Shown here piece after piece: positions 19,953 through 48,674 of a DNA stretch of 64,000 nt; position 1 is the first letter of the stretch, and the number at the start of each line of letters is the position of its first letter. The stretch comes from Nostoc sp. NMS2. Its GTDB lineage: Bacteria > Cyanobacteriota > Cyanobacteriia > Cyanobacteriales > Nostocaceae. Location: positions 1-64,000 of the forward strand of contig NZ_JABXKH010000049.1 of the NCBI RefSeq assembly GCF_017115105.1, read 5' to 3'. A program made the translations under genes and the position numbers. The notes under the pieces are model-generated. The model did not search any database. It was not told the origin of the DNA and worked only from the letters and a program-made list of their open reading frames with translations.

Positions 19953-20290
19953 AAATCATCAATTTAGCGATCGCTGGCAATTTTCTGAAGATATTACCAC
20001 TTTGCTTGCAGTCTTCAGGATACACCCCCAAAACATCCTAAATCTTCGTCCAGTAAGTCCGCACTGCTCGTTCCGATTTATACATTCTGTCGGCGATCGC
20101 CTTATCTGTCAAACTCTCTTCAAAAGCCAAACGCAACACATCCAACCATTCCGGCTTGAGTTCGATTGCTGTTTTGATGTCTTTTGTGTGAGTTGCACCC
20201 TGAAGTGCTAAATTAACTCGCATGAGCATTTCATCTTCGGGTAATCCTTTATCTGCGATCGCAAACCCAGAACAACCTTTACCATTATTG
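19951..20290 (-). pseudogene. remnant of a helix-turn-helix protein with a nonsense codon
   Basis: The minus strand encodes a helix-turn-helix-like segment: ELKPEWLDVLRLAFEESLTD, then KAIADRMYKSERAVRTYWTK. An in-frame TAG (20038-20040) interrupts it. Reading on gives DVLGVYPEDCKQSGN, the expected continuation in related proteins, in which Gln usually fills the TAG position. The frame then ends at a stop next to the hairpin repeat at 19920-19952. The region upstream of 20290 is replaced by an opposing gene fragment. I infer a decayed C-terminal fragment of a cyanobacterial HTH-domain protein. Confidence 0.6.
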
Positions 20291-20719
20291 CTTCTCTTTG
20301 TACCAATTCTCAAAGGCGGGGAGAATGAATCCATAATCCGGGAAGCATTGCAAATTTTGCGTAGAGATGAACAATTAAACCAACTAGAAACAGTTTTAGC
20401 TTTTTTTGCTACTTTTGTACTAGAGAGTGCCTTAGTTCAGGAAATCATGAGGTGGGATATGGCTGTATTGCGCGAATCACCTTGGTATCAAGAAATTTTA
20501 CGCGAAGGAGAAGCCCGTGGAGAAGCCCGTGGAGAAGCACGCGGAGAAATCCGTGGAATTCAGACGTGTCTTGAGACGTTATTAGAGATAAAATTTGGCA
20601 ATCCTGGCTTAGAGTTAATACCAATCATCTATCAAATTACAGATTTACAGCAATTGAAAGCAATTCAACAAGCCATCAAAACCGTAAATTCAGTTGAGGA
20701 ATTGAGGCAGCTTTTATAG
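20280..20719 (+). pseudogene. C-terminal remnant of an Rpn-family nuclease/transposase
   Basis: The frame encodes VPILKGGENESIIREALQIL, LETVLAFFATFVLESALVQE and IMRWDMAVLRESPWYQEIL. Then come a (GEAR)n repeat and a short helical tail ending SVEELRQLL. This is the C-terminal half of cyanobacterial Rpn (recombination-promoting nuclease) proteins. The N-terminal PD-(D/E)xK catalytic half is missing; the bases before 20280 are antisense to the neighbouring HTH remnant. The gene is therefore a 5'-truncated fragment. Confidence 0.65.
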
Positions 20720-21116
20720 TACAATTATTTAGCTCAAAGATAGCAAGTTGCAGTGTCTTCCTCAGCAAGATGAAAGGTGGACGCAAGCAAAACTATCGAG
20801 CGTCTAGCTCGTTCTATAAACTGGACGGGCTAGAGAGCTACTCCAGCCAAGATTGAAAGTTATGGTTGTAGTTCCTTCACTAATTCGACGGGGCAATTTC
20901 CCGTTCTAAGTTCTGTACACCTGTGAATCTGGAGTATTCCCGAACGATATTTTAGATCGGTGCGATGGCGTACCCACCCTTTCCGGTGGCGATCGCATTT
21001 TCCCAATTCCCAATCCCTAATTAAATTTTTCTAATAATCATTCTCTATTTTGTGGCATAAATTTAGTGAATGCGGATGATATATACATAGCAGCATTGAT
21101 CACTAAAGATTGATTT
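20720..21116. other. intergenic region
   Basis: No gene is supported in about 400 bp. A GCTAGAGAGC-type imperfect inverted repeat is seen at about 20796-20845. The AT-rich stretch before 21117 probably holds the promoter of the DUF1822/CHAT cluster. No motif is clear enough to name. Confidence 0.4.
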
Positions 21117-22085
21117 ATGAATAACTCCACCTACCAGCTAGACGATTTCGCTTTAACATTACCGATTCCTCAATTAGCTCGCATCACTGCTCATAAATTT
21201 GCTAACCAACAGCCAAATTTTGAAAAAGCAGAGCAAGTTCGGCTGAATACGCTAGCTGTGTGGGTGGTGAATGACTACTTAGAAATGATGGATATTCCTA
21301 CCAACCTCCAAGCTAGCGACAGCTGGAACCCCATCATGCGCCTCTGTGGAAATGTCGCTGACTTAGAAGTGCCCTCAGTTGGCCGTCTAGAGTGTCGCCC
21401 TGTCCATCAGCATCAACAGATATGTTCCATTCCCCCAGAAACCTGGGAAGAACGGGTGGGTTATTTAGTAGTTCAATTTGATGAATCACTCCAAGAAGCG
21501 AGGCTGCTTGGTTTTATTCCTAGTGTCACAACTGAAACACTGCCTTTAGAACAACTGCAACCATTGGAAGCGTTTATCGACCACTTGGGAGAACTGCGCC
21601 AATCTCCAGTTACTTCACTCGTGAATTTAAGTCAGTGGTTTACTGGTATATTTGAGACAGGTTGGCAAACTATTGAATCTTTGTGGAACTTGCCGGAACT
21701 CAGACCAGATTATGCCTTTCGTAGTACCGAAACTTTAGAACTTAATGCCCTAAATCAACCAGAATCAATTACTAAACGGGCAAAACTAATTGATTTAGGT
21801 ATTCAAATTCTTAACCAACCCGTCATGTTGATTGTGGAAATCAGCCCAGAAAAAGATCAACAAACCAGTATCCATCTACAATTGCACGCCACTGGGAATC
21901 AAATCTACTTACCACCCGGAGTTCATCTCACCGTTCTAGATAGTTCGGGAGCAGTATTTCTAGACGCTCAATCGAGAAAATCAGATAACTACATTCAGTT
22001 ACAGTTTCGCGGTGAAGCTACAGAACAATTTAGCGTTAGGGTAGCTATTAATGATACTAGCATTACTGAACATTTTCGGATTTAA
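21117..22085 (+). CDS. DUF1822 family protein
   Basis: A 322-residue soluble protein of the cyanobacterial DUF1822 family, recognised from FALTLPIPQLARITAHKFA and VWVVNDYLEMMDIPT near the start and WEERVGYLVVQFDESLQEARLLGF in the middle. It also has a C-terminal beta-rich part of the type VELTVLDSSG. Its function is unknown. From memory, DUF1822 genes often sit directly before CHASE2/CHAT and DUF928 genes in cyanobacteria, exactly as here. No membrane segment or signal peptide is visible, so it probably acts in the cytosol, perhaps as a partner of the next protein. Confidence 0.85.
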   Translation: MNNSTYQLDDFALTLPIPQLARITAHKFANQQPNFEKAEQVRLNTLAVWVVNDYLEMMDIPTNLQASDSWNPIMRLCGNVADLEVPSVGRLECRPVHQHQQICSIPPETWEERVGYLVVQFDESLQEARLLGFIPSVTTETLPLEQLQPLEAFIDHLGELRQSPVTSLVNLSQWFTGIFETGWQTIESLWNLPELRPDYAFRSTETLELNALNQPESITKRAKLIDLGIQILNQPVMLIVEISPEKDQQTSIHLQLHATGNQIYLPPGVHLTVLDSSGAVFLDAQSRKSDNYIQLQFRGEATEQFSVRVAINDTSITEHFRI

Positions 22086-22268
22086 AACATCTAGTTATTT
22101 TCCCTCTTTGTCGGTAATTTATTAAGTGGTAATTGGTTAATTAAAAATTAAAAATTAAAAATTCAAGCCGATTTTTGGGGATTTTGAAAAAAGTCTGCAA
22201 AAGCTTGTGGAGCTTGTTATGAGACATTAGAACAGGGGATGATTCTGCACAGAGGGATAGTGACGGTC

Positions 22269-24605
22269 ATGGGTAAGTTAGTGGTTCTGAAATTCGGAGA
22301 GGGTAGTTTTGAGCAGGGGTTTGCTGTCACCCTCCAAATTGGTGAAGAACACGAGCGGGCGGCAACAGAAATCACGGGTAAACTACCTTCATTTCCCGAA
22401 ATGCCGCTTTATTATAGTCATTGGCAGTCTAGTTATCGGCAGATAGGCAATCGTTATCGTCTCCATGCTGATAAAATGCAGGTGACGAATGTATCGATGA
22501 TTCAAGACTGCGAAAACACTTCCCATATCTTGCGGGCCCGCTTTAATACCTGGTTGCGAGCAGAAGAGTTTCGCCCTCTGAGAGAAAAATGGTTAGAAAG
22601 ATTGTCGTCCGAAGAAGAAGTACGAGTAATTTTGCAAACAGAAAATAGCCAATTGCAGCTATTGCCTTGGCATCTGTGGGAGTTATTAGAACGCTACCCC
22701 AAGGCTGAAATCGCTCTTTCTTCACCATCTTACGATCGCATTCACAAGCCACGCACCAAAAATCCATTAGTCAATATTTTGGCAATTGTGGGCAATAGTC
22801 AGGGGATTGATACTGAGGCCGATAAAGCTTTACTCCAACAGTGTGGTAACGCAGAAGTCAGCTTTTTGGTAGAACCACAACGGAAAGAATTAACCGAGCA
22901 TCTTTGGGGAAAAAACTGGGATATTCTCTTCTTTGCTGGGCACAGTTCCAGTAACAAAAATGGAGAAAGTGGACGAATTTACCTGAATAAAACTGATAGT
23001 CTGACCATTGGCGAATTAAAGTATGCTCTGAAAAAAGCCATTGAGAACGGCTTGCAACTAGCTATATTCAACTCCTGTGATGGATTAGGATTAGCGCGAG
23101 AATTGGCTGATTTGCAAATTCCTCAAATAATCGTCATGCGTGAACCAGTCCCAGACAAGGTTGCAAAGGAATTCTTAAAGTATTTTCTCCAAGGTTTTGC
23201 TGGTGGCGAGTCTTTATATCAAGCGGTACGCCAAGCACGGGAACGATTGCAAGGACTTGAGGATCGATTTCCCTGTGCAACTTGGCTACCAATGATTTGC
23301 CAAAATCCAGCGCAGACACCACCCACTTGGGATGAATTAAGGTATACAAAAAAACCTGAAGAGAGACAGAATTTAGTTTTGTCTACCAAACGCAGATTAG
23401 CAACAACTTTGTTATCCAGCTTGGCGATTACAGGCTTGGTTTTTGGGGTGAGATGGATAGGATGGCTGGAAAGTCTAGAAATTCCCGCTTTTGACCAGAT
23501 AATGCGATCGCGCCCTGCACAGGCATTAGATTCGCGCCTGCTGGTAATTACAATTGATGATGACGATCTGGCAATTCAAAGACAGAATAATGAATCCTTG
23601 ATTGGAGCTTCCATTTCCGAAAAATCTCTCAACAAATTACTGGCAAAACTGAATCAATACAAACCTCGCGCCATTGGCTTGGATATCTACCGTGATTTTC
23701 CAGCCAAACAACCAGATTTAATTACTCGTCTCCAACAAACTCAGAATTTAGTTGGCGTATGCAAAGGAAGTGATAGCACAGCAAACATCACAGGTATTAA
23801 GCCGCCACCAGAAATCCCCAAAACAAATCTCGGATTCAGTGACTTTATTCACGATCCTGATGGAGTTATCCGTCGCCATTTGCTGTTCATGAACCAGGAA
23901 CCGACATCGTTGTGTCCTGCTACCTTTGCATTCAGTCTACAACTGGCCTTTCTCTATTTGCAACCTTCAGGAATTCAACCAAAGTTCACCCCTGAAGGGA
24001 ATTTGCAACTCGGTAAAACTATTTTTCCGAATCTGAAGTCTCGCACTGGCGGCTATCACGATATTGATGCTAATGGCGGTCAAATCTTACTTAACTACCG
24101 TTCTCCAAAACAGATAGCCCAACAGGTGAAGCTGACCCAATTTTTAACCAGTCCAATTAACTCCAGTGCTATCAAAGACAAGATTGTTTTAATTGGTGTG
24201 ACAGCAAAGGGGGATTCTCAAGATACCTGGGCTACACCTTATGGCGTTCCTTTTCAGGAGCAAATGCCCGGAGTGTTAGTCCAAGCCCACATGATCAGCC
24301 AGATTCTCAGTGCTGTGCAGGATGGGCGGCCATTGCTGCGGGTTTGGTCGCTGTGGGCTGAGGCAGTCTGGATTTGGGGCTGGTCTTTGGTAGGGGGAGT
24401 TTTGGCTTGGCGAAAGCTTTCCTTACCTTGGTTGGCATTGGCAGTTAGTATTAGCTCTGGTGTGCTGTATATAGTTTGCTTTGGTCTGTTAATTTCGGGT
24501 GCTTGGGTGCCATTTATCCCGTCGATTTTGTCGCTGGTAGCCACGGTTAGCATGATGTCAATTTATAATTCAGCAACTAAAGTGCGGGTGGCGAGTAGGA
24601 AATAG
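22269..24605 (+). CDS. CHAT (caspase-like) protease domain fused to CHASE2 sensor domain
   Basis: About 778 residues. After an N-terminal region (MGKLVVLKFGEGSFEQGF) comes a CHAT domain with the caspase-type dyad. The His is in LFFAGHSSS (near 225) and the Cys in LAIFNSCDGLGLA (near 270). A transmembrane helix at about 376-395 leads to an extracytoplasmic CHASE2 domain (FDQIMRSRPAQALDSRLLVI, then KPRAIGLDIYRDFP, then GYHDIDANGGQILLNYR). Three helices at about 690-770 end the protein. CHASE2 normally senses external signals for kinases and cyclases; here the output is a predicted protease. I use ATG 22269 because the family starts MGKLVVL; ATG 22239 is in frame. Confidence 0.9.
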   Translation: MGKLVVLKFGEGSFEQGFAVTLQIGEEHERAATEITGKLPSFPEMPLYYSHWQSSYRQIGNRYRLHADKMQVTNVSMIQDCENTSHILRARFNTWLRAEEFRPLREKWLERLSSEEEVRVILQTENSQLQLLPWHLWELLERYPKAEIALSSPSYDRIHKPRTKNPLVNILAIVGNSQGIDTEADKALLQQCGNAEVSFLVEPQRKELTEHLWGKNWDILFFAGHSSSNKNGESGRIYLNKTDSLTIGELKYALKKAIENGLQLAIFNSCDGLGLARELADLQIPQIIVMREPVPDKVAKEFLKYFLQGFAGGESLYQAVRQARERLQGLEDRFPCATWLPMICQNPAQTPPTWDELRYTKKPEERQNLVLSTKRRLATTLLSSLAITGLVFGVRWIGWLESLEIPAFDQIMRSRPAQALDSRLLVITIDDDDLAIQRQNNESLIGASISEKSLNKLLAKLNQYKPRAIGLDIYRDFPAKQPDLITRLQQTQNLVGVCKGSDSTANITGIKPPPEIPKTNLGFSDFIHDPDGVIRRHLLFMNQEPTSLCPATFAFSLQLAFLYLQPSGIQPKFTPEGNLQLGKTIFPNLKSRTGGYHDIDANGGQILLNYRSPKQIAQQVKLTQFLTSPINSSAIKDKIVLIGVTAKGDSQDTWATPYGVPFQEQMPGVLVQAHMISQILSAVQDGRPLLRVWSLWAEAVWIWGWSLVGGVLAWRKLSLPWLALAVSISSGVLYIVCFGLLISGAWVPFIPSILSLVATVSMMSIYNSATKVRVASRK

Positions 24606-24660
24606 GAAAAGATTTTTTTGATTAAATCGACAAGGCTAATATAGTTCAGGAAGGGTTTTT

Positions 24661-25494
24661 ATGAAGTCAAATTCACAAGCGATAAAACTGTTTTTAGTAG
24701 TAGCTTTTAGCTATACCAATTTATTAGTTAGCCTGACACCAGTACTGGCGAAACCAAACCTTGGTTCTTCACCTAGCGATGCCTACGGCGGGCTACGCCT
24801 ACGTTCGGAAGCTAAAACAAGCCCTACTAAAGCCACATTTAATCAACCTCCAATTCCACCTGGCCCTCCTCCTGGAGGTCGCGTTCGTGGTGGAGCGAAG
24901 CGCAGCATACCAGGATGTCCAATTACTAAACATGACCTGACTGCTTTAGTTTCCTTTACTCAAGAAGCTAACTCAGTAATCAATGTCTGGGGAAAGACAA
25001 CCCTAGAACACCCAAGTTGGTTTTTCTATGTGCCATATACCAAAAATTCTCCTTATGCAGTTGAATTTGTGCTGCAAGATCAAGACTCTAACGAGATTTA
25101 CAAAAAAGCGATCGTTCTACCAGAGAAACCAGGAGTCATCAGCGTATCTCTGCCTACCACTTCTCCTAGCTTGGCACTAAACAAACAATATCGCTGGTTT
25201 TTCACCATTAACTGCGACCAGGAAAAGAATGCTCCCCCGACTTTTGTCGAAGGGGTAATACAAAGAGTTGAACTGAATTCTGCCACAGTCAAAGAGCTAG
25301 AAACGACAGAACTTTTAAAGCGCTATGCTATCTATGCCCAAAATGGGATATGGTACGACGCACTTACAACACTGGCTCAACTGCGCCAGAAAAATCCTAA
25401 AGATGCAAAATTACAAGCTGAGTGGCAGAATTTGTTAGGCGGCATCCATTTAAATGATATTGCAGCAGAACCAATTTTATCGGAGCAACCTTAG
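24661..25494 (+). CDS. secreted DUF928 family protein
   Basis: A 277-residue protein with a Sec signal peptide (hydrophobic helix, cleavage after PVLAKP) and a Pro/Gly-rich linker (about 65-80). The DUF928 core includes WGKTTLEHPSWFFYVPYT, VISVSLP, YRWFFTINCD and VEGVIQRVEL, followed by helical repeats. It is presumably periplasmic or surface-exposed; function unknown. It follows the CHAT-CHASE2 gene by 55 bp, so it is likely co-transcribed. Two oddities: the linker contains two blocks of dispersed-repeat DNA (about 24776-24812 and 24875-24914), and the TAG stop lies inside the terminal repeat of an adjacent MITE. Confidence 0.85.
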   Translation: MKSNSQAIKLFLVVAFSYTNLLVSLTPVLAKPNLGSSPSDAYGGLRLRSEAKTSPTKATFNQPPIPPGPPPGGRVRGGAKRSIPGCPITKHDLTALVSFTQEANSVINVWGKTTLEHPSWFFYVPYTKNSPYAVEFVLQDQDSNEIYKKAIVLPEKPGVISVSLPTTSPSLALNKQYRWFFTINCDQEKNAPPTFVEGVIQRVELNSATVKELETTELLKRYAIYAQNGIWYDALTTLAQLRQKNPKDAKLQAEWQNLLGGIHLNDIAAEPILSEQP

Positions 25495-25593
25495 AGGTTG
25501 TTTGAAAAGTCTAATTTCTTACTAGCCGGGCGACTAGAAGTCGCGGCTACACGAGACTTTACCTGCCTTCGCAGGTTAACTATTACACCGTAA

Positions 25594-27151
25594 GTCCCCC
25601 ACTGAATTTTGTACTCAAAATCAGTGGTGGGATATAAGGTGGGCAATGAGGAAGTGACTTTTCTGTCGTCATTGAACGCAGTTCAATCAGCAATGTTGGT
25701 CGGTGACGAATTGCCAATCTTTATGTCCGGCAGGGAGTCAATCCAATCATCAATCAAGGACGTTATAGTTTTGTCCTGTTGAACCGCATATTGCATTAAT
25801 TTATGTTTCCGTTTGTCTGATAGTCGTATTTGCAATGAGTTGTTTTTCATAATGCAGTGACAGCGTGTTTGCATTTATGTTACCATACATTAAAGGAGGT
25901 AAAACAAATGAGAACTTCGTACCATTACAAACTACGCCCAACAAAACAGCAAATAGTTCAATTTAATAAATGGCTAGACTTGCTTCGCTGTCAATATAAT
26001 TATTTGCTGGCTGATAGATTTCGCTGGTACGAAGAAAATCGATGCTCAATTAATTCTTGCTCTCTAGTTGTTTGTCATCTACCAGAGTTACGAAACAACC
26101 CTAATTACAATAGTCAGCAAGATTCATTGCCTCAACTAAAAAAAGACCGTCCTTGGTACAAAGAGTTACATTCCCAGGTGTTGCAAAATGCAGCTAAACG
26201 AGTAGAGTTAGCGATGAACAGATTTCTTAGTGGTGACTGGAATGGGAAAAGGAGCGGAAAGCCAAGGTTCAAGGCAGCTAATCAGTACAAAACTTTTACC
26301 TATCCAACTATCAAAAGTGACTGTATTGATAACGGTTTTATAACTCTACCTAAATTTGGAAAGGTAAAGCTAGTACAGCATCGGGTTATACCAGATGGAT
26401 TCAAGATAAAGACTTGCTCCATTACCAAAAAGGCAGATGGATACTACGCAACCTTGAGTTTAGAAGATAAGACTGTGCCTTCAATTAAACCAGATTTCAA
26501 CCCAGGTTCTATAACTGGGATTGATGTTGGTTTGAAGGAGTTTTTGACAACCTCCGATAACGAAGTGGTCAAAATTCCTCAGTATTATCGGAAATCTCAA
26601 AAACGTTTGCGAGTTATTCAAAAGCGAGTATCTCGTAGAAAAAAAGGTAGTATTGGTAGACATAAAGCTATCAAACAATTGAGCAAGCAACATAAGAAAG
26701 TTGCTGATAAAAGAAAAGATTTTCACTTCCAAACCGCGAACAATCTGTTGAAAAAATATGATGTTATTGCGGTTGAAGATTTGAACGTCAAAGGACTTGC
26801 GCGAACACGATTAGCTAAATCTATAACGGACGCTGGATGGTCAAGCTTTCTGTCGATACTAGCAAACAAAGCCGAAAATGCTGGTTTGTTAGTTATTCCA
26901 GTCAAAGCCTCTGGCACTAGTCAAGACTGCTCTAGTTGCGGTGTGAAAGTTTCTAAAAAACTAGATGTGAGATGGCATGATTGCCCTAATTGCGGGTGTA
27001 GTTTAGACCGTGACCACAATGCCGCTATAAATATAAAAAACAGAGCGGAGGGTCATCCCGCTCTTAAAGCCAAGAGCCTCCTAAGCAATAGCCGGATTGT
27101 CTTGGAAGCCCCCACTGAAACGGTACTCCGTTCAGTGGTGGGAGATGTCAC
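25594..27151 (+). mobile_element. IS200/IS605-group element, tnpB only (IS1341-like), copy 1
   Basis: Both ends have subterminal hairpins: CCCCCACTGA...TCAGTGGTGGG at 25595-25632 and CCCCCACTGAAACGG...TTCAGTGGTGGG at about 27108-27142. The right end is followed by GATGTCAC. Copy 2 has equivalent hairpins. It carries tnpB and a divergent ribbon-helix-helix gene but no tnpA. End positions are estimates. Confidence 0.75.
25683..25850 (-). CDS. ribbon-helix-helix (CopG-like) protein linked to tnpB
   Basis: A 55-residue protein, [20 protein letters not shown] and onward. A short beta strand (SLQIRLS) and two helices ([26 protein letters not shown]) give a ribbon-helix-helix fold, the DNA-binding fold of CopG/Arc repressors. 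It is divergent from tnpB with 57 bp between the starts. The second tnpB element has the same gene in the same place (48731-48901), with the shared tail IKIGNSS-TN. I infer a repressor of its own element. I start at ATG 25850; a longer frame to 25874 reads into the tnpB leader. Confidence 0.75.
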
Positions 27152-27161
27152 AAACTCTTGA
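25908..27161 (+). CDS. tnpB: RNA-guided endonuclease TnpB (IS200/IS605-type), copy 1
   Basis: A 417-residue TnpB. It has an N-terminal helix-turn-helix ([20 protein letters not shown]). The RuvC motifs are [11 protein letters not shown] (Asp206), [11 protein letters not shown] (Glu290) and [14 protein letters not shown] zinc ribbon (CSSCGVKV...CPNCGC) lies between the second and third. All three catalytic acids are present, so nuclease activity is plausible. TnpB proteins are guided by an RNA made from the element's right end. The start is ATG 25908, with AAAGGAGGT eight bases before it. The CDS runs through the right-end hairpin and its stop lies just outside the element. No tnpA is present, so mobility would need help in trans. 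Confidence 0.92.
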
Positions 27162-27293
27162 TTTCCTCTTAGTCCACGGAGGTGGACTTTGTTTGTGTAG
27201 TAGCGTTGGCCCTTGGCGTGCCGGAGGCATCATTCTACTCGCCTAATCTTTTCAAACATCCTCTTAGACTAAGAAACACATTCCCAGAACAAC

Positions 27294-27490
27294 TAAGTAA
27301 GTTGGCGCGAAAAAAACCAAGTATGTTACGAAACGTAAATAGATTTAAAGCCCTTACTAATGACAAATACTTCGGCTTACCTCGACTTCGCCCTTCGGCT
27401 ACGCTCAGGACAGGCTCGGCACAAGTCGCTCAGTACAAGTGACCAATAACAGCATCCGCCAGTTAGCTTTAATTGCGCCGACCTACTTAA
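27294..27490. repeat. MITE-like element, family C, copy 1
   Basis: The left end TAAGTAAGTTGGCGCGAAAA and the right end TTGCGCCGACCTACTTAA are imperfect inverted repeats. A conserved left block continues with GTATGTTACGAAACGTAAAT and TTAAAGCCCTTACTAATGAC. Copy 2 is at 40074-40222; a left half is at 46103-46172. Confidence 0.7.
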
Positions 27491-27607
27491 ATAGTTAGCC
27501 ATAATTCAACATAAAATAAAATCCTAGTTGGTAGTGAGCGATAAACCGCTCACTACCAACTAGGATTATTAGGACTAAAGTCCTTACTACAAACTTTAAT
27601 TTATTTA

Positions 27608-27751
27608 GGCACTGACAGATAAAAAAACATCCCAAATTTTCTTGTGGGATGGGGTCTGCACTACGTGCCGCTACGCGAACATCCGTCCCAGATTCAGGGT
27701 GGGCATCCTGCCCACCCCACAAGATCGATAATTTATTTCTTGCCGGTCTCT
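27608..27751. repeat. MITE-like element, family A, copy 2
   Basis: It begins GCACTGACAGATAAAAAAAC and ends TTTATTTCTTGCCGGTCTC. The inner stem is TGTGGGATGGGGT / GGTGGGCATCCTGCCCACCC-like, with an inserted GCCGCTACGCGAAC block. Confidence 0.6.
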
Positions 27752-27791
27752 TACGCCTAGCTACTTACCTTTATCCAAAATCCAAAATTGA

Positions 27792-28943
27792 TTAATCTTC
27801 TTTTTGCAAAATATCATCATCAATTCGTTTCTCCCGATTAACATCGGGAATATCTGCTGTCCAATAGTCCTCTACTTCAGGAGATTCAGAAACCATCACA
27901 AACTCAGTCTCTTTTTTATGGTTATTTCCCCATTCATCTAAAACATCTTTAATTAACACTTCTTGCAACCAAATCTTAGCGACAACAGTCAGGGGTAGTG
28001 CTAAAAATAATCCTAAAAAGCCAAAGAAAGTGACGAAAAATAGTTGGGCAATTAAGGTGATGGCGGGTAGTAATGAGACTTGACGCGCCATCACCACAGG
28101 CGTGATGAAATTGCTCTCAACCTGTTGAATGATAAAGTAGAGAATAAAAACAGCGATCGCTTTCCAAGGTTCATCTAAGAAAGCGATCGCCATTGCTGGG
28201 ATTACACTCATCGTTGGGCCCAGGTTGGGAATCAAGTTAAAAAATCCCGCTAAAATCGCCAAAGCGAGTGCTGCCTTTACACCCAAAACTGATAAACCAA
28301 CCAGACTCATTACCCCTACTACACAGATGGCAATGAAAGCACCTGTAATCCATCCCTCCAAAGAGACTTCGCACTTATTTAAAATTCCTTCCACCCGCCG
28401 CCGATAAAATGAGGGGAAAAGCCGCACAAATACTTTCCGGTAGGCTAATGGATCGGCTAACATCATTCCTGTTAAAACTAACACTAGCAAAATCTTGAGA
28501 ACGACTTCCAAAGATCCAGATACAAAGGCAAAGGAATTTCCCAGTACCCGATTGACGAATGGTTGTGCTTGTTGGATGAGGCTGTTGATATCTGGGATGT
28601 AAGGAACCAACTGGTTAGGAATGTGAGTTCTCAGGGCATCAAGCCAACTATTAAAGCGCCCAAACCCTTTAGGAACCTGATAGGTTAGTTCTTGAAACTG
28701 CTGTGCAAATGGTGGGACAATAAGCCAGAAAAAACCCACAATGCCTGCGAAAAAGATAGCTACTGCCAGGAGAACGGCGAATCCACGCTTCATCCCAAAG
28801 CGTTGGAAGCGTTTTGCTAGCCGATTTAAGGTAGTGGCTAAGACAACTGCGGCAAACATGAGCAAAAGCACTTCCCGAATTTGCCACAGGATGTATAAAG
28901 AAAGAACTATGGCGATTAAGCCGATCCATTGACCGAGGTTCAC
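27792..28943 (-). CDS. AI-2E family transporter (PerM-like permease)
   Basis: A 383-residue membrane protein of the UPF0118/AI-2E family with about seven or eight helices. It starts with IGLIAIVLSLYILWQIREVL and contains WLIVPPFAQQFQEL, the long soluble loop after it, and the C-terminal signature PVVMARQVSLLPAITLIAQL then FFGFLGLFLALPLTVV. Members include the E. coli AI-2 exporter TqsA and Na+/H+ antiporter-like proteins, so the substrate is uncertain. The gene is transcribed towards the tnpB element, and its promoter region abuts the small membrane protein gene on the same strand. Confidence 0.88.
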   Translation of the reverse strand: MNLGQWIGLIAIVLSLYILWQIREVLLLMFAAVVLATTLNRLAKRFQRFGMKRGFAVLLAVAIFFAGIVGFFWLIVPPFAQQFQELTYQVPKGFGRFNSWLDALRTHIPNQLVPYIPDINSLIQQAQPFVNRVLGNSFAFVSGSLEVVLKILLVLVLTGMMLADPLAYRKVFVRLFPSFYRRRVEGILNKCEVSLEGWITGAFIAICVVGVMSLVGLSVLGVKAALALAILAGFFNLIPNLGPTMSVIPAMAIAFLDEPWKAIAVFILYFIIQQVESNFITPVVMARQVSLLPAITLIAQLFFVTFFGFLGLFLALPLTVVAKIWLQEVLIKDVLDEWGNNHKKETEFVMVSESPEVEDYWTADIPDVNREKRIDDDILQKED

Positions 28944-29033
28944 AGGCTAACTCCCAACGGGTGGCGAGATGCAATTTTGTTGTAATTCAGCTAGGTTAGC
29001 TGATTTCAGTCACTTGTGCGTACATAGTTTGAG

Positions 29034-29225
29034 TTAATTTTGTTTCTGTGCCTGGAATCGCCACAGTAGCGCGATCGCTATAATCACAATCGGCAACAAT
29101 ACTATAATTAGCGCGTTGGTTCCTGTCGCCGGAATTGATAGATTTGGCCCCGCATACTTAATTAATAGAGATAACAAAGCCGAGAGTAAAAGCAGTTTCA
29201 GAACAAATCCTAATTGATTTCCCAT
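29034..29225 (-). CDS. small conserved membrane protein
   Basis: A 63-residue protein with two hydrophobic segments, LGFVLKLLLLSALLSLLI (about 5-22) and ALIIVLLPIVIIAIALLW (about 38-55). A loop (PNLSIPATGTN) separates them and the tail is polar. I think close relatives exist in other filamentous cyanobacteria, but I know of no assigned function. It lies 90 bp upstream of the AI-2E gene on the same strand and may be co-transcribed with it. Confidence 0.6.
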   Translation of the reverse strand: MGNQLGFVLKLLLLSALLSLLIKYAGPNLSIPATGTNALIIVLLPIVIIAIALLWRFQAQKQN

Positions 29226-30139
29226 AAAAGTACGGCATAAAAATTTTTGTGGTACACACGAGTTGGCGTTGCACCGTCCAGTTTCTACAATAAACCCACA
29301 GATACAATCTTTTTAAACTTTTATAAAGAGTTTCTACCTAGTGACTTCCAAATAAAAAAATACTCAATCATTCTTTGTGGGGTAGGCATCTTGCCCGCCT
29401 TGGCCTATGGGCGGGCAAGATGCCCACCCCACAAGATTGGATAATTTATTTGTTGGAAGTCCCCTATTGTCTCCTGCTTCCAAACCCATAGCTTTACTTT
29501 ATGCCAAAGAAAACTGCTGTATGTGCATTAGCGATCGCTTAGAGTCTTAATTCACTAAATCTTAACTTTACCATTATTGAGCAAAAGCAGTATTTACTCT
29601 GAGGATACCTGTAAAAAATACAGCCATTATAAATAGTACTACGTCACTCGTTACACCAAAGTATCGGGGATGAACTGAATGTAAAGAAGAAAAATTCAGA
29701 AGTCAGAATGGGCTAAACGCCCCGCTATCGCTAACAGGAGCGAAGCCGGAGACGTTGGGAGCATCCACAAATGGCAAGAAACACCGGGCGATTGGAAATC
29801 GCTCGCGGCTACACAAACGAAGTCTGCCTTCGCGGACTCTCTGAAACCCGCGTTCGCGTATTCCGAAGAAAAGGCGGGTTTAGTTTGTATAGCCCCAGAC
29901 TTCTAGTCTGAGGACGATCCGCCAAAACGTGATGCTCCCGAGACGTTTCTGTTGCTTTGGTCAAAATCGAGACCACTAAATCTGCCTATTTAGCGTGGGT
30001 CTTAAACTTCTCTATTCGGAGGTTAGCGGACTTGCTACTGCTTCTTTGGTCAGAATAACCAACTGAAATTATGACCAAAAAAGACATCCGGCTCCCCTTC
30101 TGACTCCTGAATTCTTATTTAGTAAATTTAAGGAGAAGG
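29226..30139. other. long intergenic region with repeats before the secretion genes
   Basis: A family A element lies at 29341-29464. Palindromic repeat DNA lies at about 29785-29930 (GGGCGATTGGAAATCGCTCG and CTTCTAGTCTGAGGAC-type blocks related to 25520-25590). No gene is seen. The last 100 bp before 30140 probably hold the promoter of the two-partner secretion operon. Confidence 0.5.
29341..29464. repeat. MITE-like element, family A, copy 3
   Basis: Ends are GTGACTTCCAAATAAAAAAA and TTATTTGTTGGAAGTCCC. The internal stem is TGTGGGGTAGGCATCTTGCC with the complement GGCAAGATGCCCACCCCACA. Confidence 0.75.
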
Positions 30140-31948
30140 GTGTCGGTGAAGCAAGTCGTTATTAAAAACTCTAGTATTAAACCAGTATTTTCTACGCTAC
30201 AAAGATTAAACAAGCCTGTAAGTATTATCTCTGAACTGCGACCTCTGGCATTTGGGTTTGTTTTAGTAGCAGTGTTATGTAATTATCAGCAGGTCATTGC
30301 CCAAACTCCTAATCCTGAGACCTTACCACCTGGTCGGTTAGAAGAAGTTCCTGTCACTCCCTTACCTGCTAATGTGTTGCCAATGCCAACAGATAACAAT
30401 CAATTGGTTCCTTTGCCAACAATACCAGATGAGTCAATTCCGAGTCAGGATGATTCTAATGCTAAATTTCGGGTAGATCGGATTGAAATTGTTGGTAGTA
30501 CAGTTTTCAAACCAGAGCAGTTTGCCGCTATTATCAATCCCTTTGTGGGAAAAGAAGTGACATTTGCAGAATTATTGCAAATCAAAGATGCGATCGCCAA
30601 GCTTTACACTGATAACGGTTATGTGACTACAGGGGCATTGATTACACCACAGACACTAGAAGCTGGAACAGTGAAGATTCAGGTGATCGAGGGCAGTCTG
30701 CAAGAAATCAAAATCATTGGTAACAGACGATTAGGTAGTAAATACATTCGCGATCGCATCCAACTTGGTGCTGGCAAACCCCTAAATGTACCACGCCTAC
30801 TAGAAAAGCTACAACTACTCCGCCTCGATCCACGGATTCAAAACCTGTCAGCCGAATTGCAGACAGGCGTGCATCCGGGAAACAATGTGTTGCAAGTTGA
30901 GGTTGAAGAAGCGGACACTTTTAAGCTGACGGCAAGCTTGGATAATGGGCGATCGCCTAGTGTGGGCAGTTTTCGCCGAGGAATAGATTTACAAGAAGCC
31001 AATTTATTGGGCTTGGGCGATACTCTGAGTGTAGGATATGCAAATACTGATGGCAGTAATAGCATTAATGCCAATTACACACTACCGATTAATGCCCACA
31101 ATGGCACTATATCCTTTGGCTTTAGCCAGGGATGGAACCGCGTTATTGAAGAACCATTCAGCGTCCTTGATATCCAGTCAAATTCCCAGTCTTACGAATT
31201 GGGCTATCGCCAACCACTGGTGCAAAAACCAACCCAAGAGTTGGCAGTTGGGCTGTCATTCTCGCGTCAGTCAAGCCAAACTGAGTTGGGTATTGATAAT
31301 ATTGGGCCGTTTCGCCTCTCACCAGGTGCAGATGCAAACGGAAAAACTAATATTTCGGCTCTACGCTTTTTTCAAGAATATACCCAGCGAAGTAATAAAT
31401 ATGTATTTGCAGCGCGATCGCAATTGAGCTTTGGTGTAGATTGGTTCGATGCAAATGTCAGTGATAATGAACCAGATAGCCGCTTTTTTGCATGGCGGGG
31501 ACAGGCGCAGTGGGTACGACAATTAGCACCAGACACATTATTTTTAGCTAGGGGCGATTTCCAATTAGCAACAGATTCCTTAGTGCCTTTAGAGCAATTT
31601 GGTCTTGGTGGACAACTAAGTGTCCGGGGCTATCGCCAAGACGCATTACTTACAGATAATGGTCTGTTGTTTTCGGCAGAATTTCGAGTCCCCATTGTCC
31701 GCGCTAAAAAGATTGACGGCATGCTGCAACTTACACCCTTCATTGATGTGGGTAAAGGCTGGAATGTTAAGGGCGAAAATCCATCACAAAGTACGCTGCT
31801 TAGTACTGGGTTGGGGCTGCTGTGGAAACAGGGTGATGACTTCTTGGCCCGCCTAGATTGGGGCATTCCCCTAATCTCAGTGGATGGTGAAAGGCGATCG
31901 CTCCAAGAAAATGGGCTGTATTTCTCAGTAAAGTATTCGCCGTTTTGA
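30140..31948 (+). CDS. ShlB/FhaC/HecB-type two-partner secretion transporter
   Basis: A 602-residue outer-membrane TpsB protein. A signal-like helix (LAFGFVLVAVLCNY, about 35-48) is followed by a Pro-rich linker and POTRA domains (FRVDRIEIVGSTVFKPEQF from about 110, then VKIQVIEGSLQEIKIIGN). A 16-strand-type barrel carries the L6 motif SVRGY (near 495) and ends in VKYSPF, a terminal aromatic typical of Omp85-family sorting. TpsB proteins bind the TPS domain of their partner in the periplasm and thread it out. The partner is the next gene. The start is GTG 30140 with AGGAG before it; GTG 30146 is also possible. Confidence 0.92.
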   Translation: MSVKQVVIKNSSIKPVFSTLQRLNKPVSIISELRPLAFGFVLVAVLCNYQQVIAQTPNPETLPPGRLEEVPVTPLPANVLPMPTDNNQLVPLPTIPDESIPSQDDSNAKFRVDRIEIVGSTVFKPEQFAAIINPFVGKEVTFAELLQIKDAIAKLYTDNGYVTTGALITPQTLEAGTVKIQVIEGSLQEIKIIGNRRLGSKYIRDRIQLGAGKPLNVPRLLEKLQLLRLDPRIQNLSAELQTGVHPGNNVLQVEVEEADTFKLTASLDNGRSPSVGSFRRGIDLQEANLLGLGDTLSVGYANTDGSNSINANYTLPINAHNGTISFGFSQGWNRVIEEPFSVLDIQSNSQSYELGYRQPLVQKPTQELAVGLSFSRQSSQTELGIDNIGPFRLSPGADANGKTNISALRFFQEYTQRSNKYVFAARSQLSFGVDWFDANVSDNEPDSRFFAWRGQAQWVRQLAPDTLFLARGDFQLATDSLVPLEQFGLGGQLSVRGYRQDALLTDNGLLFSAEFRVPIVRAKKIDGMLQLTPFIDVGKGWNVKGENPSQSTLLSTGLGLLWKQGDDFLARLDWGIPLISVDGERRSLQENGLYFSVKYSPF

Positions 31949-32089
31949 TCTCTAGTACTTAATCAAAATTCTGTCTTGAGAGTGCTGAGTCCAGTAAAAA
32001 ATACTCGGCACTTTTGATTTTTTAAGGTGTTTCAGTACCATGCCATTTTGGGAATCATAATAGCATCTGGTAAAGAGAGGATTGACAGT

Positions 32090-34807
32090 ATGAGAGCAAT
32101 TCGCAAAGCAACAAGCCTCTGGCTTAATACATTTCTATCTATACTTACAACCGGGTTCTTAACTTCCGTGGTACTACCTGCGATCGCTCAGGTTACATCT
32201 GATGGTACTACCAATACGATTGTCAACCTAAATAGTAATAATTTTACAATTCTGAATGGGATAAATCAAGGTAGCAATTTATTTCACAGTTTTAGTAATT
32301 TCTCTGTCCCAACTGGTGGCTCTGCAACCTTTAATTTAGTTAACACACCAAATATTACAACTATATTTAGTCGGGTTACAGGTGGGAATGTTTCTAATAT
32401 TGATGGGTTAATTCGTACAGTAAATAGTAGTAATCTGGTAAGTTTGTTTTTAATGAATCCTAACGGCATTATATTTGGGCAAAATGCCAAGTTGGATATT
32501 AGTGGATCGTTTGTCGGCACTACAGCAAATAGCATCAAATTTGCAGATGGATCTGAGTTTATGGCCACAAATTCCAGTGCAATGCCATTATTAACGATCG
32601 CAGTGCCCATTGGCTTACAATTTGGGCAAAATCCGGGAACCATTACCCATCAAGCCAGTACCACAGGATTGATCCTTAAAACAGGCAAAACTATTGGTTT
32701 ACTGGGTGGCGAAGTCACTATAGATAGGGGGAAAATCACCGCCCCTACTGGTCAGATAGAAGTAGCTGGTTTAGCCAGTAACACAACAGTCAACCTGGCT
32801 CAAACAGCATCAGGCTGGCAATTTAGCTATCCTACTTATTCAAAGTTTCAAAATGTTCGGATTACCAACGGCGCGCAAATCAATGCCGATGGTGTCGGTG
32901 GGGGACGGATTCAAATCAACGGACAGCAAGTGACAATTGACGGACTCTCCTCCATCACCGCCAACACCAGTGGAGGCAGTAATGGTCAGGGTATTCTGAT
33001 TCAAGGTTCTGATAGTATAGCGATCGCCGGATCAGCCCCTACCTCTAGTACCGTCACCAACATCGCTGCCGATGTTAGACCGAAGGCAACAGGTAACGGC
33101 GGTGAAATTCGCTTGATTACACCCACCCTCAAAGTCCAAGATGGGGCCCGCATCCGCACACGTGTTTTTGGTGCTGGTAAGGGTGGTAGTGCGATCGTCC
33201 AAGCCGACCGGGTAGAACTGCTGCGGGATACCACCGACGGTAATAATAACCGATTTGCCAGCACCCTGGCAGCGAATACCGAAGAAGGATCGCAAGGTCA
33301 TGGGGGTAACGTCGAAATCACGGCAAAAACGGTTTTGATTCAAGATGGGGCAGAACTGCGGGCTTCCGCCCGTGGTTCGGGTGATGGCGGCAATATCATC
33401 GTCAAAGCTAGTGATTTACTCAGCGTTACTGGCGAGTCTAGCACCAACGATCCAGGTTATCTCACAGGTATGAGTACTAGCATTCGTGAAAATGCCACAG
33501 GACAAGGTGGCAGCATTTTTTTAGAAGCGGGCAAGATTGAAGTATTAAATGGCCCCTCAATTCGCACAGGTACTTATGGTCAAGGCAATGCTGGAAACAT
33601 TTATGTCAAGGCAAATGAAGTCACCATCGCTGGTTATGCCAACAGTGGTATAGTCAGTCGGTTTTTTGCGTCTGCCTATGTGCTGGAAGAAAATGGCAAG
33701 CCGCGTCTAGATAGATCCACTGGGAAAGGAGGCAATATTACCTTTGATGTGGGACATCTCAAACTACTTGAAGGTGGCAAGATTTCTTCATCCTCCGAAG
33801 CCCAAGGCAATGCTGGCTGGATTTTAATTAATGCAGATAGAGTTGAACTGGCGGGGAAATCCCGCTCTCCAGTGCAACTCAATTTCACCTATGCCTTGGA
33901 TGCAGGTGGCAAGAGTGGTCTCTATGCTTTTTCGGATAACACATCGACCAAAGATTTACCAGTTTCTCAGGGGCTTCGGTATGGCGATGCTGGCTCTATT
34001 CGCATCAATGCAAACAGCCTGACTGTACGGGATGAAGCCGAAATTGTGGTCAGCAGCAACAACAACAGTAATGCTGGCAACTTAGTGGTTCAGTCTGACA
34101 CCATCAGACTGAGTGAACAGGGAAAGCTGCGTGCTGAAGTAGCCTCTGGTAGTCAAGGAAATATCAATTTGACTAGTTCACTTTTGCTGATGCGGGATGG
34201 TAGTCAAATTAGCTCGAATGCTGGTAGTACGGCTAGTGGTGGCAACATTTCAATTAACAGTAAGGTCATCGTTCAAACCAATAATAGTGATATCACTGCC
34301 AATGCGATCAAAGGTCAGGGTGGTAATATTAACCTCACCACTCAATCATTGATTGGCGGTGCTTTTCGCCCTCAACTTACACCCCAGAGCGACATTACAG
34401 CAAGTTCCGAATTTGGTATTAATGGTTCTGTCCAAATCATGACACCGAATGTGAATCCAAACTCTGGTTTAGTGGAACTACCAGCGAATGTTACCGATCC
34501 ATCGCAGCAAATAGCCAATGGTTGTTCTGCAAGTCAAGGCAGCCGTTTTGTAGCAACAGGACGGGGTGGTGTACCGCAAAATCCCAGTCAAGATGTGACA
34601 AGCGATCGCACCTGGTCAGATATCCGCGATATCTCGGCATATCGCCAAACAGATAACGTTACAGCCCAAATACCTATAACAGGACAAACACTAATCCAAG
34701 CTACGTCTTGGCATCGTAACGCACTAGGAAAAATTGAGCTATTAGCAGATAAACACCCTGCTCAGGTGCAACAATTATTAACTTGTGCTGCTATATCCAA
34801 AAATTAA
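32090..34807 (+). CDS. filamentous haemagglutinin-type TpsA exoprotein
   Basis: About 905 residues. A signal peptide ends VVLPAIAQ. The TPS domain follows, with FNLVNTPNITTIFSRVTGG and the diagnostic MNPNGIIFGQNAKLDISGSF (NPNG near 123). The rest is a long beta-helical stretch rich in Gly, Ser, Asn and Thr with repeated GNGGEI, GQGGSI, GNAGN-type turns. The C-terminal part has a single Cys (NGCSASQGS) and the conserved TWSDIRDISAYR-type segment. It is secreted by the preceding TpsB and probably sits on the surface as an adhesin or contact factor. No toxin domain is visible. The start is ATG 32090 at the signal peptide. Confidence 0.9.
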   Translation: MRAIRKATSLWLNTFLSILTTGFLTSVVLPAIAQVTSDGTTNTIVNLNSNNFTILNGINQGSNLFHSFSNFSVPTGGSATFNLVNTPNITTIFSRVTGGNVSNIDGLIRTVNSSNLVSLFLMNPNGIIFGQNAKLDISGSFVGTTANSIKFADGSEFMATNSSAMPLLTIAVPIGLQFGQNPGTITHQASTTGLILKTGKTIGLLGGEVTIDRGKITAPTGQIEVAGLASNTTVNLAQTASGWQFSYPTYSKFQNVRITNGAQINADGVGGGRIQINGQQVTIDGLSSITANTSGGSNGQGILIQGSDSIAIAGSAPTSSTVTNIAADVRPKATGNGGEIRLITPTLKVQDGARIRTRVFGAGKGGSAIVQADRVELLRDTTDGNNNRFASTLAANTEEGSQGHGGNVEITAKTVLIQDGAELRASARGSGDGGNIIVKASDLLSVTGESSTNDPGYLTGMSTSIRENATGQGGSIFLEAGKIEVLNGPSIRTGTYGQGNAGNIYVKANEVTIAGYANSGIVSRFFASAYVLEENGKPRLDRSTGKGGNITFDVGHLKLLEGGKISSSSEAQGNAGWILINADRVELAGKSRSPVQLNFTYALDAGGKSGLYAFSDNTSTKDLPVSQGLRYGDAGSIRINANSLTVRDEAEIVVSSNNNSNAGNLVVQSDTIRLSEQGKLRAEVASGSQGNINLTSSLLLMRDGSQISSNAGSTASGGNISINSKVIVQTNNSDITANAIKGQGGNINLTTQSLIGGAFRPQLTPQSDITASSEFGINGSVQIMTPNVNPNSGLVELPANVTDPSQQIANGCSASQGSRFVATGRGGVPQNPSQDVTSDRTWSDIRDISAYRQTDNVTAQIPITGQTLIQATSWHRNALGKIELLADKHPAQVQQLLTCAAISKN

Positions 34808-47444: not shown

Positions 47445-48674
47445 CTACACTGATTGAGTACAATACAGTGTAGGCTTCTCACCAAATCCAGCTATTGCTT
47501 CGGATACTCGATGAGCTTTAAGAACGGAATGCCCTACCGCCCTATTCTTTATATTTATAGCTCCATTATGGTCACGGTCAAGACTGCACCCACAGTTAGG
47601 GCAATCGTGCCATCTTTCATGCAGCTTTTTAGGAACTTTCACGTTACAACCAGAACAATCTTGACTTGTGCCAGATGCAATAACTGTGATAACCAACAAA
47701 CCAGCATTTTCGGCTTTGTTTTTTAGTATCGACAGAAAGCTTGACCATCCAGCATCAAGTACAGACTTCGCCAATCGAGTACGTGCAAGTCCTTTAACGT
47801 TTAAATCTTCAACTGCAATAACATCATATTTTTTCAATAAATTGTTAGCAGTTTTGAAATGAAAATCTTTGCGTTTATCCGCAACTTTCTTGTGCTGCCT
47901 CCCCAATTGTTTTACTGCTTTCTTTCTTCGATTACTGCCAATATGCCGACGTGAAACACGTTTTTGAATGACTCGTAAACGTTTCTGAGATGAGCGGTAA
48001 TGTTGAGGGATTGCAACAGTTTCACCCACGGATGTGGTTAAGAATTCCTTTAAGCCAACATCAATTCCAGTTATAGAATCTGGGTTGAAGTCCGGTTTAG
48101 TAGTTGGAACTGTCGCATCTTCCAGGCTGAGGGTTATGTAATACCCATCCGCTTTTTTGGTTATAGATGCAGTCTTGATTTTGAATCCGGCGGGGGTAGA
48201 ACGATGCAAAACAACCTTAACCTTGCCAAACATTGGGAGATTAATTAGATTGCCTTGTATGCAAGTCTCTTTCATACTCGGATAAGTGAAAGTCCGATAA
48301 CGGTCACGAGCCTTAAATCTCGGTCTACCGCTACGTTTCCCGTTACTATCACCACCTAGAAAAAGGTCAAAAGTTTTCTTAACTCGTTTTACTACATCTT
48401 GGAGAACTTGCGAATAAATCTCACCGTAATGAGGATGAGTTTTCTTTAGTTCGGGAAGAGTTCTCTTTTGACTGTAGTAGTCAGGATTATCACGCAGGCG
48501 GGGAAGATGACAAACAAGAGGACAAGCGTTGACGGGACAACGATTTTGCTCATACCAGTTAAATCTGTCTGCCAGCAAATAGTTGTATTGAGCGCAAAGC
48601 ATAGATAACCATCTATCTATCTCTACGGCTTGTTGTTTTGTTGGGCGAAGTTTGTACTGGTATGCTGTTCTCAT
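47445..48674 (-). CDS. tnpB: RNA-guided endonuclease TnpB (IS200/IS605-type), copy 2
   Basis: A 409-residue TnpB with the same plan as copy 1: N-terminal [20 protein letters not shown], RuvC motifs [22 protein letters not shown] and [13 protein letters not shown]. The zinc ribbon is CSGCNVKV...CPNCGC. All catalytic acids are kept. The two proteins are clearly homologous over their full length but differ at many positions. The stop lies within the right-end hairpin. A TTGTTTTCCTCC stretch just after the start on the plus strand is the complement of a strong ribosome site (GGAGGAAAACAA). Confidence 0.92.

Follow-up and report, generated by a model that had tools for sequence, protein, structure and literature searches.

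What do the DUF1822, CHAT-CHASE2 and DUF928 genes that stand in tandem in Nostoc sp. NMS2 do together, and do the two-partner secretion (TPS) genes found downstream belong with them? The genes lie in a stretch of 64,000 nucleotides (hereafter the window) on contig C181 (137,882 bases) of a 7.57-Mb genome, and those of its relatives that carry names are Nostoc. A preliminary description of this DNA had joined five genes in one surface module, in which an outside signal might control an inner-face protease acting on DUF1822. The list of open reading frames (ORFs) and the Pfam matches place all five genes, with their domains and order, as then described:

21117-22085, plus strand: DUF1822 protein, 322 aa (PF08852, E 1.2e-88)
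22239-24605, plus strand: CHAT-CHASE2 membrane protein, 788 aa (PF12770 and PF05226)
24661-25494, plus strand: DUF928 protein, 277 aa (PF06051, E 9.4e-63)
30140-31948, plus strand: TpsB transporter (ShlB, POTRA_2 and Omp85)
32027-34807, plus strand: TpsA exoprotein (TPS domain, E 1.8e-60; TIGR01901, adhes_NPXG)

The first three genes are a real, ordered and selected triad. By analogy with the Craspase systems, and with slightly less than even confidence, the triad is proposed to be the sensor-protease core of a two-module envelope signalling cassette, in which a signal would cause CHAT to cut DUF1822 and a sigma-like factor would thereby be freed. The observations behind this proposal are gene order, conservation, the CHAT dyad, selection, linkage statistics, co-retention of the sigma gene and a two-domain model of DUF1822. 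Loci, genomes and contigs are cited below by our L, G and C numbers.

Conservation of the triad

An orthologue of CHAT-CHASE2 (80-100% identity) was present in 35/35 same-genus genomes, the window's own counted; it is split into two frames in G019, and the match in G029 contains one stop. DUF1822 lay upstream in all 20 same-genus regions compared and DUF928 downstream in 19 (L050 lacks it); as a neighbourhood, the triad is conserved beyond this genome. In the window, 157 bp separate DUF1822 from CHAT-CHASE2. The ratio of non-synonymous to synonymous substitution (dN/dS) against ten relatives was 0.07-0.13 for DUF1822, 0.14-0.20 for CHAT-CHASE2 and 0.24-0.45 for DUF928.

Linkage was quantified in ten whole genomes, with the share of each genome near the second family giving the expected value. 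The inputs were 108 of 117 CHASE2 matches (nine weak or partial ones were dropped), 77 of 79 DUF928, 138 of 139 TPS and 42 of 43 DUF1822 matches. Among the matches listed there were 25 CHAT-CHASE2 genes, of which 22 had DUF1822 within 1.5 kb (0.09 expected) and 21 had DUF928 within the same distance (0.14 expected). A further 79 loci were fetched from the best 80 of at least 558 confirmed, using two peptide patterns, one of which holds the catalytic Cys motif; 76 yielded a full-length protein, and domains in these loci were labelled with local profiles, each built from one seed. The named loci belong to Nostocales (62/76) and at least five other orders; the 31 TPS-linked rows comprise 28 Nostocales, two Oscillatoriales and one Chroococcales. 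When loci with sufficient flank were thinned at 70% identity, DUF1822 stood upstream on the same strand within 1.2 kb of CHAT-CHASE2 in 30/42, DUF928 downstream within 1.5 kb in 38/42, both in 26/42, and a sigma-like gene upstream in 27/42.

Departures from the single intact triad were also seen. Five loci (L038, L039, L040, L041 and L043) hold two triads back to back, the window type and a divergent sigma-DUF1822-CHAT-CHASE2-DUF928 cluster. In L188 (G019) the cluster is decaying, with TPR-CHAT in three frames, the CHAT and CHASE2 halves ~2.2 kb apart and the DUF928 ORF down to 149 aa.

The CHAT-CHASE2 protein

Pfam places CHAT at residues 136-342 (E 4.5e-18) and CHASE2 at residues 398-721 (E 7.7e-67); orthologues begin at an ATG 30 bases downstream of the called start of the window gene. 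The His-Cys dyad of the preliminary description corresponds to H235 and C280 and is conserved among orthologues, being intact in 126/126 full-length homologues, a count that is somewhat biased because part of the set was fetched with the peptide pattern containing the Cys motif. The set includes near-copies and one genome fetched twice, and interrupted copies (such as L089, L111, L136 and L159) had been removed from it by length and profile filters. Two cysteines of the CHASE2 domain, C508 and C559, are likewise invariant in the 126 homologues; they may form a disulfide, and sensing would then possibly be redox-sensitive.

About 130 conserved residues precede CHAT. This N-terminus is shared with proteins that have other C-termini, such as FHA (L059) or a periplasmic-binding domain (L087), as Kaur et al. 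(2021) described for EACC2. The region is probably the EACC2-CHAT arrangement, although the Pfam and NCBIfam scans gave no match to an EACC2 model. CHAT is taken to be a protease and the protein to be membrane-embedded, with a topology that rests on the precedent of a metacaspase-CHASE2 fusion (PMC3501461), since no more than one helix was predicted by a simple hydropathy scan. No match to CHAT-CHASE2 was found in the phage collection.

A sigma-like factor and a TPR-CHAT protein

Two usual members of these loci had been missed by the preliminary description: a sigma-like factor and a TPR-CHAT protein. In some of the same-genus loci (L044, L045, L047, L048 and L049) the genes run on one strand in the order sigma, TPR-CHAT, DUF1822, CHAT-CHASE2, DUF928. 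Of the 32 long-flank loci that remained after thinning at 70% identity, 31 have DUF928 within 10 kb of CHAT-CHASE2, 26 have DUF1822, 24 a sigma-like gene, 19 TPR-CHAT, 17 a TPS-domain gene and 6 TpsB; the sigma-like factor is a more consistent partner of the triad than is the TPS pair.

The upstream sigma-like proteins fall into two classes. Members of the long class (~400-550 aa) include that of L158, which scored 95.5 bits against a cut-off of 42.9 for TIGR02937 (sigma70-ECF; ECF, extracytoplasmic function), and Sigma70_r4 was matched in L121, L158 and L077. The short class comprises proteins of ~216-250 aa, some of which are annotated as sigma-70 in plasmid records. A further gene of 522 aa (L082, L089) is annotated as sigma-70, and Pfam and NCBIfam gave no sigma match for it.

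Local profiles found no sigma-like ORF in the 64-kb window. Remnants of sigma or TPR-CHAT genes were also sought with tblastn (E 1e-3), using two of each against the window and four relatives, and nothing was found. An orthologue of the L044-type sigma gene (86-91% identity) nevertheless occurs in 20/20 same-genus genomes searched; it adjoins the triad in 5/20 and lies elsewhere or on another contig in 15/20, including the window's genome (G000:C105:56182-56826, 87% identity). That the gene has been kept even where it is separated from the triad is the strongest hint that the triad and the sigma-like factor still work together.

The displaced sigma gene of the window's genome (L180:9177-9827, minus strand) lies among ORFs that resemble housekeeping genes, and the sequence upstream of it (GTTGTTATACGCAATACTAAGATATTCTTG) hardly differs among the copies compared, whatever the location of the gene. 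In L130 (130-2703) and L131 (6409-8982) the gene upstream of DUF1822 and CHAT-CHASE2 encodes NACHT and HEAT domains followed by a sigma-like C-terminus. The NACHT and HEAT domains were seen for L130, and L131 was assigned by profile; the fusion joins a STAND-type regulator to a sigma-like part.

The TPS pair at the window locus

TpsB and TpsA are 79 bp apart and, with a POTRA domain and ShlB barrel and an N-terminal TPS domain, are ordinary members of two-partner secretion; their interest lies in their neighbours. Two genes stand between the triad and the pair:

25857-27161, plus strand: TnpB/IS605 OrfB, a mobile gene (PF01385, PF07282 and PF12323)
27792-28943, minus strand: AI-2E family transporter (PF01594)

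The second of these was absent from the preliminary description, in which a mobile element was held to have parted two halves that were once closer. The TnpB stretch (~25.5-27.5 kb) does look like an insertion, because the collinear relative L033 has no counterpart, and TnpB looks like an inserted mobile gene outside the system. The AI-2E gene, however, separates the halves even without it: in L033, which lacks the TnpB stretch, DUF928 is still ~2.75 kb from TpsB with the AI-2E gene between them. That gene adjoins the triad in 9/20 same-genus regions and occurs within 10 kb in 0/52 loci outside the window clade; it is a syntenic neighbour and probably lies outside the system.

In L035, L037 and L038 homology stops after the AI-2E gene. 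L033 (G006) alone among the relatives compared continues through TpsB, which is 92% identical at the same place, and its TpsA-like ORF is 164 aa long. Orthologues of the window's TpsB (80-87%) occupy other places in G001, G002, G003, G005 (partial), G009, G010, G014 and G015. The pair was considered as an ancestral, conserved part of the window triad and rejected as such, given that only L033 shares its TpsB and orthologues lie elsewhere.

A conserved element stands upstream of the triad:

21053-21085, plus strand: promoter-like element upstream of DUF1822, conserved in the upstream alignment

The element, TGGCATAAATTTA-N11-GATATATA (TGGCATAAATTTA...GATATRTA), is conserved among 23 distinct window-clade sequences upstream of DUF1822, for which it may serve as a promoter. 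A looser exact pattern was matched at the promoter of DUF1822 in 19/20 same-genus genomes searched, with a few further matches in other same-genus genomes; in the window's genome it occurs once, upstream of DUF1822. As the mark of a TPS regulon the element was rejected on this single match and on its low scores at TpsB and TpsA, and it lends no support to TPS co-regulation. Further afield, the Picosynechococcus locus L090 scored 19.0, above the highest of 422 controls (16.8). A recurring 25-base second match to the pattern, GCATAAATTATYTCASATTTGATAT, was seen in 7/20 genomes (G004, G007, G008, G011, G012, G017 and G018), the window's not among them.

It is an even question whether the TpsB-TpsA pair of the window is an accidental or recently moved neighbour that does not work with the triad. 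Its place is shared only with G006, in which TpsA is so short, its TpsB orthologues are elsewhere in eight other genomes, and it has no promoter element in common with the triad. Against this, orthologous TpsB genes stand beside CHASE2-DUF928 modules in two genomes: in G001 one heads an array (L174) that ends in TPR-CHAT, DUF928 and a CHASE2-kinase, and in G014 one abuts another sigma-DUF1822-CHAT-CHASE2-DUF928 cluster (L175). This TpsB lineage thus accompanies CHASE2-DUF928 modules, from one to another of which it may have passed; on one reading, the window's pair came to the triad from another such module. In the window's genome, the trio on contig C108 (L065: CHASE2-kinase, DUF928 and TPR-CHAT) has no TPS gene in the 19 kb examined, and no TPS match was obtained on that contig.

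TPS linkage across the CHAT-CHASE2 family

Linkage to TPS genes is weak at the window locus and real for the CHAT-CHASE2 family. In the ten genomes, 13/25 CHAT-CHASE2 genes had a TPS gene within 10 kb where 0.86 were expected (~15-fold; P 2e-13, although P values overstate independence because a single genus supplies eight of the ten genomes). None of the 25 had one within 1.5 kb, so the TPS gene is a neighbour and usually not the next gene. The same distance of 10 kb linked TPS genes to 22/83 other, non-CHAT CHASE2 genes (2.53 expected) and to 36/77 DUF928 genes (2.36 expected), and 54/77 DUF928 genes lay within 1.5 kb of CHASE2 (0.51 expected). As an internal control, the 18 DUF1822 genes more than 3 kb from a listed CHAT-CHASE2 gene had TPS within 10 kb in two cases (0.65 expected) and DUF928 in one (0.49 expected); this set and that of the 83 other CHASE2 genes hold at least one likely unlisted CHAT-CHASE2 locus (G054:C6).

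All five families of the preliminary description occurred together within 10 kb in 8/126 loci (the window, L033, L035, L071, L073, L076, L079 and L083). In L083, a plasmid of Nostoc sp. UHCC 0302, the genes are collinear in the order sigma-like, DUF1822, CHASE2, DUF928, TpsA, TpsB, TPR-CHAT; the sigma-like ORF is annotated as hypothetical and was matched by local profile. Of the one surface module first suggested, the triad stands as a conserved unit and TPS linkage stands at the level of the family (13/25), but membership of the window's own TPS pair is not supported by conserved synteny.

The partners of CHASE2 and of CHAT vary. The CHASE2 proteins scanned beside DUF928 carry as outputs an adenylate/guanylate cyclase (L170, L171 and L173), a hybrid histidine kinase (L174 and L065) or none recognised (L172), and in L174 a single strand bears TpsB, TpsA, TpsA, TPR-CHAT (in two frames), DUF928 and the CHASE2-kinase. 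Conversely, CHAT beside sigma and DUF1822 is found with a periplasmic-binding domain (L087) or with no recognised sensor (L088). These linkages suggest that CHAT-CHASE2 connects an envelope module with a cytoplasmic one. A hydrophobic run near the N-terminus was present in only 29/48 TPR-CHAT proteins, so their secretion is putative.

The TPS and TPR-CHAT genes might instead be linked to CHASE2-DUF928 as co-moving surface islands that the protease does not regulate, an explanation that we think rather improbable. It would account for the scatter of the TPS label on a tree of 41 CHAT-CHASE2 proteins, where 21 rows carry it, 13 changes are needed (at least eight forced by well-supported branches) and 194/500 shuffles were as low, so that the label is not clustered. 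The absence of the window-clade promoter element from TPS genes fits it as well. It is opposed by the size of the enrichment, which is strong for non-CHAT CHASE2 too and absent for DUF1822 without CHAT-CHASE2, and by the collinear blocks L174 and L083.

Proposed mechanism

In the proposed cassette, DUF1822 and the EACC2-CHAT protease at the N-terminus of the sensor would make up the cytoplasmic module together with the sigma-like factor. The envelope module would comprise CHASE2, placed beyond the inner membrane, DUF928 as a secreted protein and, in many cases, the TPS and TPR-CHAT genes. DUF928 together with CHASE2 would read a change at the surface of the cell, which might concern exoprotein export or the wall, and this signal would switch CHAT on. 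Active CHAT would cut DUF1822 in its flexible linker, and the sigma-like factor held by DUF1822 would be freed to alter the transcription of surface genes. In the window strain, the sigma gene would have been relocated to another contig and the TPS pair would be a recent neighbour of the triad. Cleavage, sigma binding and the TPS genes as targets are inferred; the analogy is with Craspase, Csx30 and its sigma factor.

DUF1822 is proposed as the inhibitor and substrate, and DUF928 as a periplasmic partner that would contact CHASE2. The model of DUF1822 (mean predicted local distance difference test (pLDDT) 88.2, predicted template modelling score 0.60) has an alpha/beta N-domain and an Ig-like C-domain, joined by a linker in which residues 200-211 fall under a pLDDT of 50. 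Across 45 homologues the region corresponding to residues 165-218 varies from 40 to 82 residues and the C-domain is constant at 97-113; such a variable, low-confidence region fits a predicted cleavable linker. DUF928 modelled as a beta-sandwich with C-terminal helices and a disordered start (pLDDT 86.8), and has an N-terminal hydrophobic segment at residues 7-25. Fold searches with the two proteins returned common Ig-like or beta-sandwich matches only. In DUF928, C86 and C185 are kept in at least 90% of 51 aligned proteins.

Several observations weigh against the proposed cassette. The DUF1822 model contains no TPR array, although Kaur et al. call DUF1822 a TPR protein. Csx30 was not among its Foldseek matches, nor found on a second look, in lists filled by the Ig-like C-domain, so that the N-domain was hardly probed by the fold search. 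The short sigma-like class had no Pfam or NCBIfam match, and the two best PDB matches of its profile, both ECF sigmas, were weak (E 0.015 and 0.044). The one helix called in CHAT-CHASE2 by hydropathy lies at residues 734-752. The promoter-like element scores low upstream of TpsB and TpsA in the window, and among other-clade operons 8/50 exceeded the 95% mark of the controls (Mann-Whitney p 0.28). Within the window clade, TPS or TpsB was found within 10 kb in 7/26 loci, three of them beside a second triad.

If the proposal is true, DUF1822 and DUF928, both families previously of unknown function, gain testable roles, DUF1822 as a cleavable sigma inhibitor and DUF928 as an extracytoplasmic partner of CHASE2 sensors with several output types. 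The caspase-like proteases of multicellular cyanobacteria would be tied to envelope sensing and transcription, beyond cell death, and the CHAT-protease/inhibitor/sigma logic of Craspase would have a second, independent case.

Comparison with known systems

The core of the triad is already known as a prediction, because Kaur et al. (2021; PMC8195603) predicted systems of EACC2-caspase proteins, in which a constant N-terminal module precedes a caspase-superfamily domain and the C-termini vary, CHASE2 included. Most EACC2 loci have ECF sigma and DUF1822 neighbours, DUF1822 being in the majority of TRADD-N-independent loci, and a version of the logic of caspase, variable sensor, ECF sigma and DUF1822 was set out in that work (PMC8195603). 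A conserved N-terminal region (probably EACC2) before the caspase-superfamily domain, the dyad of that domain, the CHASE2 C-terminus and the DUF1822 neighbour are all present here. The window differs in that its sigma gene is displaced to contig C105, with none in the 64 kb, and in that its DUF1822 models as two domains and not as TPR. DUF928 and ShlB do not occur in the main text of Kaur et al. (PMC8195603), and its EACC2 section makes no mention of DUF928, TPS or TPR-CHAT.

In Craspase (Cas7-11/gRAMP, Csx29, Csx30 and sigma), the TPR-CHAT protease Csx29 cuts Csx30, which inhibits an ECF-like sigma factor (PMC10028731). In both systems a single locus can bring together a CHAT protease, an inhibitor-like protein and a sigma of the ECF-like kind, and the linker-type cleavage at a non-conserved site known there is what is proposed for DUF1822 (PMC10028731, PMC11106740). 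They differ in the trigger, which is RNA in Craspase and would be an envelope signal sensed by CHASE2 here, and similarity between Csx30 and DUF1822 was not detected: a DUF1822 profile matched no PDB sequence, and the Foldseek lists held Ig-like folds for the C-domain only. No gRAMP (Cas7-11) was seen among the window proteins scanned, no search aimed at Cas7-11 having been made. A fuller version of the proposal is doubtful: that the locus is a membrane-gated cyanobacterial counterpart of Craspase, in which DUF928-CHASE2 would sense the state of the envelope or of TPS-exported surface proteins, CHAT would cut DUF1822 and a dedicated, divergent ECF-type sigma would be released to control a surface programme. 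CHASE2-DUF928 would then be an interchangeable envelope input, serving cyclases and histidine kinases as well, and TPS genes would move from one such input to another.

Among cyanobacterial CHAT proteins, HetF is the one studied by experiment; this putative protease has FtsI as an interaction partner and might degrade PatU3 (PMC8406250, PMC12288457). The window protein shares with it a CHAT domain with a dyad, and its residues 202-287 match the HetF model NF045509 weakly (29.6 bits against a cut-off of 1200), but it is not an orthologue. An envelope signal, a protease, an anti-sigma and a sigma are also the parts of RseA/DegS-type anti-sigma proteolysis, from which the present proteins differ in the CHAT fold and in the union of protease and sensor in one polypeptide. 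Such proteolysis is mentioned in PMC10028731.

The open-access literature searched yielded no paper that connects CHASE2 with DUF928 and TPS; a CHASE2-DUF928-WD40 cluster has been reported in Nostoc punctiforme (PMC5587647). As far as these searches reach, what appears new is the envelope module, the pairing of DUF928 with CHASE2 proteins of differing output, the linkage to TPS and TPR-CHAT genes, and a sigma that is retained although displaced. The novelty seems to lie in modularity: CHASE2, DUF928, TPS and TPR-CHAT recur together whatever the CHASE2 output, and sigma, DUF1822 and CHAT recur with other sensors.

The published EACC2 class suggests another function, that of a conflict or cell-death system in which the sensor would trigger CHAT autoprocessing and then defence or suicide, with the surface genes as effectors or targets. 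The core parts are the same as in that prediction (PMC8195603). The fusion of a sigma-like C-terminus behind NACHT and HEAT in L130 and L131 is an architecture of the immunity type, and plasmid-borne copies exist. We nevertheless regard this function as unlikely, since the five window proteins matched no PADLOC model, the orthologue is near-universal in the genus and slowly evolving, whereas defence loci are usually patchy in their spread, and there is a tight tie to DUF928 and to those CHASE2 proteins whose outputs are of ordinary signalling kinds. Least probable, and indeed very unlikely, is that CHAT is a scaffold and the triad signals otherwise: protease activity in this family is predicted from sequence, but H235 and C280 are kept in 126/126 homologues, a set partly fetched by the Cys-motif pattern, and dN/dS of the gene is low at 0.14-0.20.

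Other features of the window

Upstream of the promoter-like element, a 165-aa ORF with GEARGEARGE repeats (20222-20719, plus strand) had no match in the Pfam scan; it presumably resembles the C-terminal part of an Rpn-type transposase/nuclease. A second TnpB/IS605 OrfB-like ORF, besides that at 25857-27161 (plus strand), lies at 47448-48674 on the minus strand.

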